DNA from: Acidimicrobiia bacterium
GTDB lineage: Bacteria; Actinomycetota; Acidimicrobiia; Acidimicrobiales; SZUA-35
Reading direction: 5' to 3'
DNA length: 49,868 nucleotides
Assembly: GCA_003231975.1 (NCBI GenBank)
Contig: QIKW01000140.1
Location: forward strand, 1-49,868
Within the stretch, counting starts at the first letter, position 1. Each line of letters starts with the position of its first letter. Positions 27,342-33,585 of the stretch are shown here, one piece after another. A model generated the notes under the pieces. It was not told the origin of the DNA. It searched no databases and saw nothing but the letters and a program-made list of their open reading frames with translations. Made by a program: the position numbers and the translations under genes.

Positions 27342-28019
27342 CTAAGTCGACCCGAGGTTCAGTTTCGCCACTGCGCTCCTTACGAGGCCGGAGAGGATCT
27401 CCCTACCTGCCTGGGCGGTTGCCCGGCTGGGATCGCCAAGCACCCCAGAGGAAGAAACTGCGATCACTCCGCCCTCAAGCATCGCTGCCATCAGCTCACC
27501 AACGGGCTGGGCGGGCCCAGCCACCGCACGGTCGAGTGCAACCAGTTCGGGAGCCAGGTGAAGCATCAGCGATGTTTCGGTGTGCCCGGCGTGAGCGTCT
27601 GAGCCTGCTACGACCGGGAGAAGCACATCTACCGTGTGGCCTTGGCTTCGAAGCAGGCCCGATGCAAGAACCAGAGCGTCGGCGTTCCCACCGTGCCCGG
27701 AAACAAAGACTATGCGGTCAAAGCGGGCCGCAGCCGAGCGAGCAAGCTCGACAAGCACCAAGTGCAGAACCTCGGTACCAAGCGAAAGGGTGCCTGGGAA
27801 CTCTTGATGCTCACCAGAGGCGCCGAAGGGTAGAACGGGCGCCACAACCGCAGTGCCTTCCGAAGCCGCCGCGATGCCCTTTGCCCAGGCCTCGGCAATT
27901 ATTGAGTCTGTTGAAACAGGTAGGTGAGGGCCGTGCTGCTCGGTAGAGCCAAGTGGAACCAGAAGAGCATCAGGAAGCTCGGAAGCCTCGGGCCACGTCA
28001 GCCCCGCCAACTCGGTCAC
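27342..28019 (-). CDS. mftE: Mycofactocin precursor peptidase MftE (creatininase family)
   Basis: PLGSTEQHGPHLPVSTDSIIAEA, FVSGHGGNADAL, DAHAGHTETSLML. Confidence 0.93.
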   Translation of the reverse strand: MTELAGLTWPEASELPDALLVPLGSTEQHGPHLPVSTDSIIAEAWAKGIAAASEGTAVVAPVLPFGASGEHQEFPGTLSLGTEVLHLVLVELARSAAARFDRIVFVSGHGGNADALVLASGLLRSQGHTVDVLLPVVAGSDAHAGHTETSLMLHLAPELVALDRAVAGPAQPVGELMAAMLEGGVIAVSSSGVLGDPSRATAQAGREILSGLVRSAVAKLNLGST

Positions 28020-28912
28020 GGCTGGGTGTAGCCCCAGCGGCGCAGATGCCGGGCCGCAACCACGGCAGCCTCAGCAGGTGAGAGTTGAAGCAGTTGCGGT
28101 GGCGTTTGCTCCTCGTTGAGGCCAGCCAGCGCGGCCACTCGGTCACCAGACTTCCCGATTGGCGGAGCCACAACCTTGGCTCTTGGACGGAATGGGTGAA
28201 CTTGTCCCAACGGCAGTTGGTCTGCCCCGGCCGAGACGGACCGCACCTCGACCGTGGCCTCGGCGGCCTGAAGCACCGATGGCAGTGAGGCTCGCCTGAG
28301 TTCCACGAAGGGCTCAACCGAAATCACTGCGGGCGAGGTGATGCTCAGCTGCTCTCGCCGGCCATGATCGAGCCGCCTGGTTGCCATAAGGCTGCCGTCG
28401 GTTTCCAATTCGTCTTGTTCAACCGAGACGAGGCCAAGCGCTTGTGCTGCTCCCAGTTGCCCGGCCAGGAAGGCTGGCACCGAACCAGAACCCCGGTCAA
28501 GGCTGTAGCTACCACAAACAACGAAGGATGCAGATGCGCACAAGCCGGCCAGAAGCCGAGCCACCTCAGAAGAGTCGGGCCCGGCAGAATCGGGGCCGGG
28601 TGGCCCGGGATCGAGACGCACTGCCCTTTTTGCTCCCGCGGCCAGGGCCCGGCGCAGCATCGGGTCAGCAACCGAGCCGCCAACAGTCACAACCGTGACT
28701 GGCTGTGCCCCATGTTTGGCCAGTCGAAGTGCGGTTTCAAGCGCCGCGAGGTCGGCCGCGCTGCTACCGCCGAACCGCTGATCGTCAGAAGGCGGGCCGG
28801 ACAAGAGGTCGATGTCTGGTCGGAGGGGCACCCACTTCAGGCAGACAACGATCTCAGAGTGCCTACCAGATGCATCGGGCGCTGTCCTGTCGTTAGGAGT
28901 GTTTGAAGACAA
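28016..28912 (-). CDS. Electron transfer flavoprotein beta subunit (FixA-like), mycofactocin-associated
   Basis: IVVCLKWVPLRPDIDLLSG, AADLAALETALRLAKHGAQPVTVVTVGG...LRRALAAGAKRAVRLD. Likely TTG start at 28912 overlapping the fixX-like stop; the track start 29140 is too long. Confidence 0.85.
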   Translation of the reverse strand: MSSNTPNDRTAPDASGRHSEIVVCLKWVPLRPDIDLLSGPPSDDQRFGGSSAADLAALETALRLAKHGAQPVTVVTVGGSVADPMLRRALAAGAKRAVRLDPGPPGPDSAGPDSSEVARLLAGLCASASFVVCGSYSLDRGSGSVPAFLAGQLGAAQALGLVSVEQDELETDGSLMATRRLDHGRREQLSITSPAVISVEPFVELRRASLPSVLQAAEATVEVRSVSAGADQLPLGQVHPFRPRAKVVAPPIGKSGDRVAALAGLNEEQTPPQLLQLSPAEAAVVAARHLRRWGYTQP

Positions 28913-29288
28913 CGCCGCTTCCGCCCTCCGGGTAGCTCCAAGTGATCGCACCCTCGCGGTTGCACACCATGTAGCAGGTGCCGCACTCGAAACACTGTTC
29001 GTAGTTGAAAAGGATCCCGCCGTCTGACACGGGTACGAACAAATCGGCGGGGCAGCAATGAACACATTCCTTTGTGGTGCACGAACGACACACCGCTGAG
29101 TCAACCGTGATGTGTGCTTGGCTGGAGACCCGAAAGTCAACGGTTGTCATCCGCTGCTCGAAACTTACCTCTGGAAGTGGTTGACTCGCTTCTGAGGAGG
29201 GCCTCAGCGTGCCCGCTTGGCGTGCGGGAACCGATGACCCAAGGCTGCGGGCCCCGAATCGTTGCAGCCGGTGAAGTCCGATGCGCAT
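28893..29288 (-). CDS. Ferredoxin-like protein (FixX-like)
   Basis: HITVDSAVCRSCTTKECVHCCPADLF...YEQCFECGTCYMVCNREGAITWSYPEGGSGV. Start may be 29150 (MTTVDF). Confidence 0.88.
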   Translation of the reverse strand: MRIGLHRLQRFGARSLGSSVPARQAGTLRPSSEASQPLPEVSFEQRMTTVDFRVSSQAHITVDSAVCRSCTTKECVHCCPADLFVPVSDGGILFNYEQCFECGTCYMVCNREGAITWSYPEGGSGVVFKHS

Positions 29289-32628: not shown

Positions 32629-32655
32629 GCCCCGCCGGCTGGGACTGGTCGAGAT

Positions 32656-33585
32656 TCACTCGGCCTCTTCGGTCGTGCCCTCAAGCTCGGCTAACAGACA
32701 GGCTGCGAACTCGGCGGCATCACACACCAATGCCAGGTCGGCCATTGCCATCATCGGGCAGTGCGGGTCGGTGTTGACACTAATGATGTGTTCTGGTGAG
32801 CCCAGCCCTGCGGTGTGCTGCACGGCCCCCGAGATTCCGAGGGCAATGTAGAGATCTGGATTCACCGCCACCCCGGTTGTTCCGATCTGCCGCTCAAACA
32901 GAACCCAGTTCCAGTCGGTAGCCACTCTGGTAGCCCCAACCGACGCACCCAGTTTCATTCCGATCTGGCCCACTTCGGCCATCGCGCCAATCGATCCCAG
33001 CCCGGCGCCAACGCCAATGATCCGTCTGGCTTCGCCAAGTTCGACTGTTGCCGGGTCTGGTTCCAACTGGGCGATCAGCAGAGGGTTTGGCTGTTCTGTC
33101 GGCGGATCGAGGGAAACAACGACGGTCTCAGGCGGCTCTAGGTTGATGGCGGGGCGAACCGAGCGCACACCAGGTTGGAGCGTGGCAACCACAGGCTCAG
33201 CAATGTCGACATCTTGCAGAACCAGGCCCCCGAGGCGAGCAACCGAGGCCGTGGACTCTGACACCTCAATCGCCCCCGAAATGAGGGGCCTGCCCAGGGC
33301 CGTTGCCAGGTGAGGGGCCAGATCCCTGCCGTCTGGGCAGTGAGGCAGCAGCACGACGCGCTCGCTTGCCAACCGGGGGACTGCGGCAAGCAGGCAGGCG
33401 GCCAGATGGGCGGGGTTGAAACCTTCCGCCTCGGCGATGAAGGCGGTGTGGGCTATGCCTGCGAACGCGGCGACGGTTTGGGCGGGCTCAGAGCCGACCA
33501 ACACCACGGCGCCGCTCGACTCAGCTGCTGCTTCCAAGCCGCCAAGGGGCAGCTCGCCTTGTCTCACCGGGATCACTGCGATCAT
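32656..33585 (-). CDS. Electron transfer flavoprotein alpha subunit (FixB-like), mycofactocin-associated
   Basis: C-terminal FAD domain: VGATRVATDWNWVLFERQIGTTGVAVNPDLYIALGISGAVQHTAGL...IISVNTDPHCPMMAMADLALVCDA. Confidence 0.9.
   Translation of the reverse strand: MIAVIPVRQGELPLGGLEAAAESSGAVVLVGSEPAQTVAAFAGIAHTAFIAEAEGFNPAHLAACLLAAVPRLASERVVLLPHCPDGRDLAPHLATALGRPLISGAIEVSESTASVARLGGLVLQDVDIAEPVVATLQPGVRSVRPAINLEPPETVVVSLDPPTEQPNPLLIAQLEPDPATVELGEARRIIGVGAGLGSIGAMAEVGQIGMKLGASVGATRVATDWNWVLFERQIGTTGVAVNPDLYIALGISGAVQHTAGLGSPEHIISVNTDPHCPMMAMADLALVCDAAEFAACLLAELEGTTEEAE

Follow-up and report, generated by a model that had tools for sequence, protein, structure and literature searches.

A mycofactocin-linked module of OYE, electron transfer flavoprotein and FixCX genes that occurs in place of MftD and may take over its biosynthetic step

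The window analysed here is the whole of contig QIKW01000140.1 (49,868 nucleotides; C4 in our numbering) from the 275-contig, 95% complete assembly GCA_003231975.1 of an Acidimicrobiia bacterium, and its subject is a set of genes for an electron transfer flavoprotein (ETF), FixCX-like proteins and OYE-type flavoenzymes embedded in a mycofactocin (mft) locus. The closest named relatives of the window EtfA likewise come mostly from Acidimicrobiia. Read from position 49868 to 22897, the locus comprises the 3′ part of mftC, a molybdenum hydroxylase large subunit gene, two genes for SdrD-repeat proteins, a crotonase gene, OYE_1, OYE_2 and etfA, then a plus-strand luciferase-like gene, egtD and fixC, followed by fixX, etfB and mftE, and finally genes for a nicotinoprotein alcohol dehydrogenase, a MoxR ATPase and a CoxE-type VWA protein, and mftF. 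The 3′ part of mftC runs off the contig end, while its 5′ part, mftB and mftA are found at the start of contig C79, where the mftA precursor reads ...EEISIDGMCGVY. The mycofactocin genes of the window and the ETF, Fix and OYE genes among them are as follows.

22897..24252, minus strand: mftF, mycofactocin glycosyltransferase (TIGR03965, 341 bits, cut-off 280)
27342..28019, minus strand: mftE peptidase (TIGR03964, 281 bits, cut-off 172)
28016..28912, minus strand: mft_etfB, ETF beta subunit, FixA-like, start uncertain (TIGR04503, 234 bits, cut-off 200; matches to PDB ETF structures)
28893..29150, minus strand (longer open reading frame to 29288): fixX, two-cluster ferredoxin (best solved match EtfX, 7koe_D; eight Cys conserved across loci)
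31279..32628, plus strand: fixC, ETF:quinone oxidoreductase-like flavoprotein, conserved in the module (PRK10015, 332 bits, and PRK10157; 7koe_C)
32656..33585, minus strand: mft_etfA, ETF alpha subunit, FixB-like, FAD motif RQIGTTG kept (NF038209, 333 bits, cut-off 240)
33585..35624, minus strand: OYE_2, FMN/4Fe-4S flavoenzyme, proposed AHDP dehydrogenase (TIGR03997, 902 bits, cut-off 793; histamine/trimethylamine dehydrogenase fold)
35621..37663, minus strand: OYE_1, paralogue and usual tandem partner of OYE_2 (TIGR03996, 711 bits, cut-off 628)
49172..49867, minus strand: mftC radical SAM maturase, C-terminal part (TIGR03962, 340 bits, cut-off 265)

OYE_1 and OYE_2 overlap by 4 bp, OYE_2 and etfA by 1 bp and etfB and mftE by 4 bp (28016-28019), so that OYE_1, OYE_2 and etfA are very probably co-translated, as are etfB and mftE. 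The etfB start candidate at 28912 is a TTG codon that would make the gene overlap fixX by 20 bp. The first-pass annotation of this DNA had described four ETF/Fix reading frames inside the mycofactocin locus, with the etfB-mftE overlap just given; all four are real, EtfA and EtfB scoring above the mft_etfA and mft_etfB cut-offs and FixC and FixX being nearest to Thermotoga EtfC and EtfX. Its ferredoxin frame (28893-29288) does contain fixX, but the true gene is probably the shorter one ending at 29150, with an ATG start and 85 aa. It had also stated that the association of ETF subunits with mycofactocin was already recorded in annotation families, which is so (NCBIfam mft_etfA NF038209 and mft_etfB TIGR04503). 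To that picture the present analysis adds that OYE_2 and OYE_1 belong to the module and that mftD is absent from the genome.

The ETF of the module is distinct from the housekeeping ETFs of the same genome, and an identity as an ordinary ETF is ruled out: the two other ETF-alpha genes reach only 164 and 117 bits on NF038209. Among solved structures, FixC is closest to T. maritima EtfC (7koe_C, E 4e-76) and FixX to T. maritima EtfX (7koe_D, E 2e-15), and the EtfA FAD motif and the eight cluster cysteines of FixX are retained across lineages. EtfB gives only weak matches to 1efp, 4kpu and 7koe_A; it is about equally near to canonical and to bifurcating ETFs, and its nucleotide-site motif is a clear fit to neither type. 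The module thus resembles the FixABCX/EtfABCX systems of T. maritima (7KOE) and A. vinelandii in holding EtfA, EtfB, FixC and FixX and in the same predicted quinone endpoint. It differs from them in that its EtfA and EtfB fall into their own mycofactocin-linked families, that it always carries OYE_2, and that its FixCX can be replaced by an EMO-type oxidoreductase; ferredoxin reduction is here at most predicted. The window genes are members of mft_etfA, mft_etfB, mycofact_OYE_1 and mycofact_OYE_2 above curated cut-offs, yet the names of these NCBIfam models give no reaction, and neither FixCX nor the exclusion of MftD is part of them.

The unit OYE_1-OYE_2-EtfA-FixC-FixX-EtfB recurs in Actinobacteriota, Chloroflexota, Pseudomonadota, Bacillota and Dormibacterota. 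In the neighbourhood survey, mft_etfA loci have FixC alongside and OYE_2 in the genome, usually with OYE_1, FixX and EtfB as well, and in several loci the OYE genes directly follow mftC, the usual position of mftD. One actinobacterial operon (G226) reads mftC-OYE_2-etfA-fixC-fixX-etfB-mftF; there, as in the LH_M24 actinomycete, the module holds a single OYE, which is OYE_2. Among 80 named mftC loci, a set chosen partly by locus type whose proportions are not population frequencies, the unit is present in Competibacter, Alphaproteobacteria, Bacillota, Dormibacterota, Chloroflexales and (with EtfA) Desulfobacterota, and no MftD over the cut-off occurs in those genomes. In three Chloroflexota (G511, G529, G608) the OYE-ETF-FixCX unit is intact at about 150 kb from mftC, which shows that ETF and FixCX travel with OYE and not with mftC. 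In two sulfate reducers (G442, G443) the FixCX slot after etfA is occupied by a multihaem cytochrome c and a membrane protein (L225 7266-10079; L226), the latter being, in G442, NarI-like/Fe-S/CCG and of the EMO kind. This exchange supports a quinone endpoint, whichever adaptor is used.

The finding that carries the argument is the mutual exclusion of the module and MftD. MftD (TIGR03966, cut-off 470.85 bits) was searched for in whole genomes, and in the window's genome the best match reaches 281 bits. In the Actinobacteriota sample and four relatives, MftD exceeds the cut-off in 44 of 58 mftC genomes, and the 14 others are all 12 genomes with mft_etfA, the genome G226, whose module is recognised by context, and one fragmentary assembly. 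The Chloroflexota (330 genomes searched) served as a test sample that had not been used in forming the idea: 17 carry mftC, of which 3 have MftD without OYE_2 and 14 have OYE_2 without MftD (12 over the cut-off, one at 747 bits and one truncated). The named Pseudomonadota, Bacillota, Dormibacterota and Desulfobacterota genomes agree with the exclusion. Over all 99 mftC genomes, MftD is missing from 46, and OYE_2 is present in 41 of those. Four of the 41 (G444, G452, G497, G704) fall short of the OYE_2 cut-off, and in at least three the reason is a gene truncated by a contig end. MftD is present in the other 53; OYE_2 was sought in 49 of these and found in 3, none with an adjoining ETF. No genome in which the ETF module was seen has MftD. 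In the 41 MftD-less genomes with OYE_2, FixC stands beside EtfA in 32, an EMO-type protein takes its place in 2, and contig ends cut the locus in 7. An LldD paralogue standing in for MftD is ruled out as a general explanation, since several module genomes have no TIGR03966-like match at all at the thresholds used.

The two states have been exchanged repeatedly. The MftC tree requires 8-9 changes between MftD and module states, some of them between well-supported sister genomes (G325/G142, support 100; G082/G320, support 97) and others inside a single family (f7). In a midpoint-rooted OYE tree, the pairs from Rhodococcus-type genomes, which have MftD and no ETF, form one nested clade within each of OYE_1 and OYE_2, and the ETF-linked state therefore looks ancestral.

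OYE_2 combines an OYE barrel, a 4Fe-4S cluster and two nucleotide domains, and its sequence also matches histamine and trimethylamine dehydrogenases. Its AlphaFold model (mean pLDDT 78) superposes with a TM-score of 0.85 on both histamine dehydrogenase (3k30) and trimethylamine dehydrogenase (1djq), and with a slightly lower score of 0.82 on 2-naphthoyl-CoA reductase (NCR). The iron-sulfur cysteines Cys352/355/359/371 are invariant, and the second nucleotide domain carries D-x-x-G-[FH]-H instead of the NAD(P)H glycine motif, in which it resembles histamine dehydrogenase. An invariant Glu63 aligns with Gln65 of histamine dehydrogenase and is possibly an ammonium ligand, a suggestion that comes from the alignment. 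Amines are the substrates that histamine and trimethylamine dehydrogenases oxidise, and the latter enzyme passes its electrons to an ETF. The likeness to these enzymes thus covers the FMN/4Fe-4S/nucleotide-domain build and a second domain without the NAD(P)H fingerprint, whereas identity is about 25%, the covalent cysteine is replaced, the genes are tandem paralogues and the proposed substrate is another one, 3-amino-5-[(4-hydroxyphenyl)methyl]-4,4-dimethyl-2-pyrrolidinone (AHDP).

Altogether, these observations led to a model in which OYE_1, OYE_2, EtfA, FixC, FixX and EtfB act together as a single functional unit in place of MftD in mycofactocin biosynthesis, a reading that we consider, on balance, just probable. 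MftD catalyses the oxidative deamination of AHDP to the keto-amide premycofactocin (PMC7491314, PMC11778925). The reaction proposed for the module would be identical, carried out by a family unrelated to MftD, which is an LldD-like FMN enzyme. OYE_2, together with OYE_1 in most lineages, would be an FMN/[4Fe-4S] dehydrogenase of the histamine/trimethylamine-dehydrogenase build and would oxidatively deaminate AHDP or AHDP glycosides to premycofactocin. Electrons would then leave the OYE iron-sulfur cluster for the dedicated ETF, with gene linkage suggesting the ETF as acceptor of this amine oxidation, and would pass from there to FixCX (in sulfate reducers, to the EMO-type membrane oxidoreductase) and into the quinone pool. 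The alpha-keto-amide redox centre would in this way be formed without O2. MftD, for its part, uses O2, and for the module independence from O2 is inferred. In its widest form, the proposal would be that a trimethylamine dehydrogenase-like pair of OYEs, with an ETF and a quinone reductase (FixCX or EMO-type) dedicated to it, performs the redox-forming step without O2, has been exchanged with MftD several times, lets anaerobes and micro-aerobes make mycofactocin and charges the quinone pool; we give this fuller version about an even chance.

Several results weigh against the replacement of MftD. Only 4 independent switches have strong branch support, a number at which a sign test cannot be significant by itself. 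Five MftD-less genomes (G213, G437, G438, G441, G453) have no OYE_2 over the cut-off, at least G213 among them being fragmentary. In the structural comparison it is the reductase NCR that has the best Foldseek E-value for the OYE_2 model, and the fold alone is thus no proof of an amine substrate; OYE_2 also lacks the cysteine for covalent (6-S-cysteinyl) FMN, with Leu30 where histamine dehydrogenase has Cys. The weightiest point comes from the Nocardiaceae and a few others, which carry OYE_1 and OYE_2 with MftD, and usually MftG, but without ETF or FixCX, so that OYE itself does not exclude MftD. In Rhodococcus, Prescottella and Speluncibacter, the order is mftC-mftD-OYE_1-OYE_2-mftE-mftF, mftG is located within or close to the cluster, there is no ETF, and R. 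opacus has a mycofactocin-coupled short-chain dehydrogenase/reductase gene between the OYE genes; these clusters hold {MftD, MftG} in place of the window's {EtfAB, FixCX}. An exclusion of MftD by OYE alone is ruled out by these genomes. Such pairs fit either the retention of OYE after a gain of MftD or a second OYE function, and they are the main reason why our confidence stays moderate.

The first-pass annotation had proposed another role, in which an ETF/quinone route reoxidises mycofactocinol instead of, or besides, MftG. The mycofactocinol dehydrogenase MftG (TIGR03970) would likewise hand mycofactocin-derived electrons to the respiratory chain, although it is a GMC flavoenzyme. It had been reported missing from the window, and the whole genome yields none over the TIGR03970, TIGR04542 and NF038210 cut-offs either. 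Two GMC matches were considered and rejected as MftG: the one on contig C114 is choline dehydrogenase BetA (826 bits, cut-off 732; MftG score 336 against a cut-off of 387), and the one on contig C98 falls far below all three MftG models. A phylum sample of 399 genomes, 54 of them with mftC, gave mft_etfA in 8 genomes, all 8 with mftC; MftG exceeded its cut-off in 12 of the 54; these belong to a single family, and mft_etfA is missing from each. That OYE_2 or OYE_1 oxidises mycofactocinol and passes electrons over ETF/FixCX to quinone, replacing MftG, can draw on this lack of co-occurrence, on the proximity of the module to nicotinoprotein alcohol dehydrogenases that use mycofactocin, and on a midpoint potential of -255 mV for the premycofactocin couple (PMFT/PMFTH2), which makes menaquinone reduction favourable (PMC11778925). 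The paper on MftG also found about 25% of mftC genomes without it and left its replacement open. However, in over 30 mftC genomes MftD occurs without an MftG above the cut-off and also without the module, which is accordingly no general MftG substitute. The consistent loss of MftD would moreover be left unexplained, and a second enzyme would be required. Outside a single family, most mftC genomes with MftD are without MftG too, so that its absence tells little. MftG displacement is rejected as the organising rule. What stands of the earlier proposal is a dedicated, mycofactocin-tied module in a genome without MftG, and the survey that it had called for does find mft_etfA and MftG never together; what falls is MftG replacement as the main point, most MftG-less mftC genomes being without the module as well. 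We regard mycofactocinol reoxidation as unlikely, at perhaps one chance in five.

Slightly less likely still is a division of labour in which deamination of AHDP falls to one OYE and oxidation of mycofactocinol to the other, with a shared ETF and quinone reductase. It is compatible with all observations, nearly all loci having two OYE paralogues and Rhodococcus lacking {EtfAB, FixCX} where both MftD and MftG are present, but the modules of G226 and the LH_M24 actinomycete manage with OYE_2 alone. The kinship of FixC and FixX to the T. maritima EtfABCX complex raises electron bifurcation, in which EtfAB-FixCX would oxidise mycofactocinol or NADH and reduce both quinone and ferredoxin, and the -255 mV midpoint would be thermodynamically compatible with ferredoxin and menaquinone as acceptors. 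We consider this improbable, given the equal nearness of EtfB to canonical and bifurcating ETFs and the EMO-type oxidoreductase that sulfate reducers put in place of FixCX. The least probable reading, by a little, takes OYE_1 and OYE_2 for catabolic reductases of unsaturated substrates that the ETF serves, with the absence of MftD coincidental. The family does resemble 2,4-dienoyl-CoA and 2-naphthoyl-CoA reductases, and a crotonase gene adjoins OYE_1 in the window's family. Yet MftD and the module exclude each other in a second phylum too, and again along the MftC tree; OYE_2 does not keep the NAD(P)H fingerprint, and 14 control genomes without mycofactocin contain no comparable OYE_2.

MftD has been treated as a core mycofactocin enzyme, although Haft 2011 already noted that its family is not universal among mycofactocin genomes. 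If replacement of MftD by the module is correct, many mycofactocin bacteria (close to half of the 99 genomes, some of which were picked by locus) produce the cofactor with no MftD. The replacement would then account for mycofactocin synthesis in sulfate reducers and may explain how anaerobes make mycofactocin; it would also give a function to four gene families that have names but no assigned role, and tie mycofactocin synthesis to the quinone pool. In the literature available outside subscription, no paper was found that joins mycofactocin with an electron transfer flavoprotein, and none with an MftD substitute. The protein families are named and the association of ETF and OYE with mycofactocin is known from NCBIfam; as far as that literature shows, the complete unit with FixCX, the exclusion of MftD, the swap on the quinone side and the proposed function are new.

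The splitting of the set by divergent genes, which had been singled out as noteworthy, turns out to stem from a rearrangement within a lineage. In the window's family, each of the four loci (G000, G003, G008, G013) has fixC inverted, while etfA and fixC share one strand in 8/8 other Actinobacteriota loci showing both and are collinear in nearly all other lineages, which rules out the split as a functional feature and leaves a local rearrangement without visible functional meaning. The conserved module does not include the luciferase-like gene and egtD, which came to lie there later; egtD is near fixC in G013 as well. The remaining genes of the locus are as follows.

24249..25046, minus strand: CoxE-like VWA protein, member of a MoxR-VWA-alcohol dehydrogenase block that recurs in many mft loci (PF05762)
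25163..26140, minus strand: MoxR-type AAA ATPase (PF07728/PF20030)
26137..27285, minus strand: N,N-dimethyl-4-nitrosoaniline (NDMA)-dependent (nicotinoprotein) alcohol dehydrogenase, likely a mycofactocin user (TIGR03989, 503 bits, cut-off 440)
29342..30259, plus strand: luciferase-like (LLM class) oxidoreductase between fixX and fixC, not in the module of other lineages (PF00296)
30327..31256, plus strand: egtD-like histidine N-alpha-methyltransferase beside fixC, approximate start, outside the conserved module (TIGR03438, 310 bits, cut-off 291)
37702..38397, minus strand: crotonase/enoyl-CoA hydratase, adjoining OYE_1 in the window's family only (G003, G008)
46905..49175, minus strand: molybdenum hydroxylase large subunit, family-specific, 4-bp overlap with mftC; also beside the crotonase gene in G008

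Between the crotonase and molybdenum hydroxylase genes, the window encodes two very long SdrD_B/Ig-like repeat proteins (38430-42881 and 43119-46730). In the relative G008 (L062) the two enzyme genes are adjacent, which makes the repeat proteins look like an insertion. Neither a small nor a medium subunit of the hydroxylase was recognised in the examined part of the window, and the enzyme is possibly an aldehyde oxidase for the product of the alcohol dehydrogenase. The MoxR ATPase, CoxE-type VWA protein and NDMA-dependent alcohol dehydrogenase (24249-27285) constitute a conserved three-gene block of mycofactocin loci, whether MftD is present or not, which was also seen in L057, L059, L060, L065, L066, L070, L073, L076, L077, L083, L088, L089, L092, L100, L101 and L177; MoxR and the VWA protein are perhaps a chaperone pair for the nicotinoprotein.

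Three Desulfobacterota mftC-mftF loci (L114, L115 and L118, in G437, G438 and G441) have neither MftD nor OYE_2 over the cut-off; the TIGR03966-like protein that G441 encodes stays below the cut-off with 346 bits. In the Desulfobacterota loci L114-L119, the MftA precursors, encoded about 330-450 bp upstream of mftC, end in ...VDGICGIY. Haft 2011 described the Val-Tyr core of MftA as invariant; since Ile-Tyr replaces it here, a mycofactocin variant with a different ring substituent is predicted from these precursors. Finally, the metagenome-assembled genome REEB453, labelled 'Acidobacteria' (L085), and the actinobacterial genome G399 (L149) encode identical MftC proteins, and they are for this reason probably the same or nearly identical genomes, with the Acidobacteria label likewise probably wrong.

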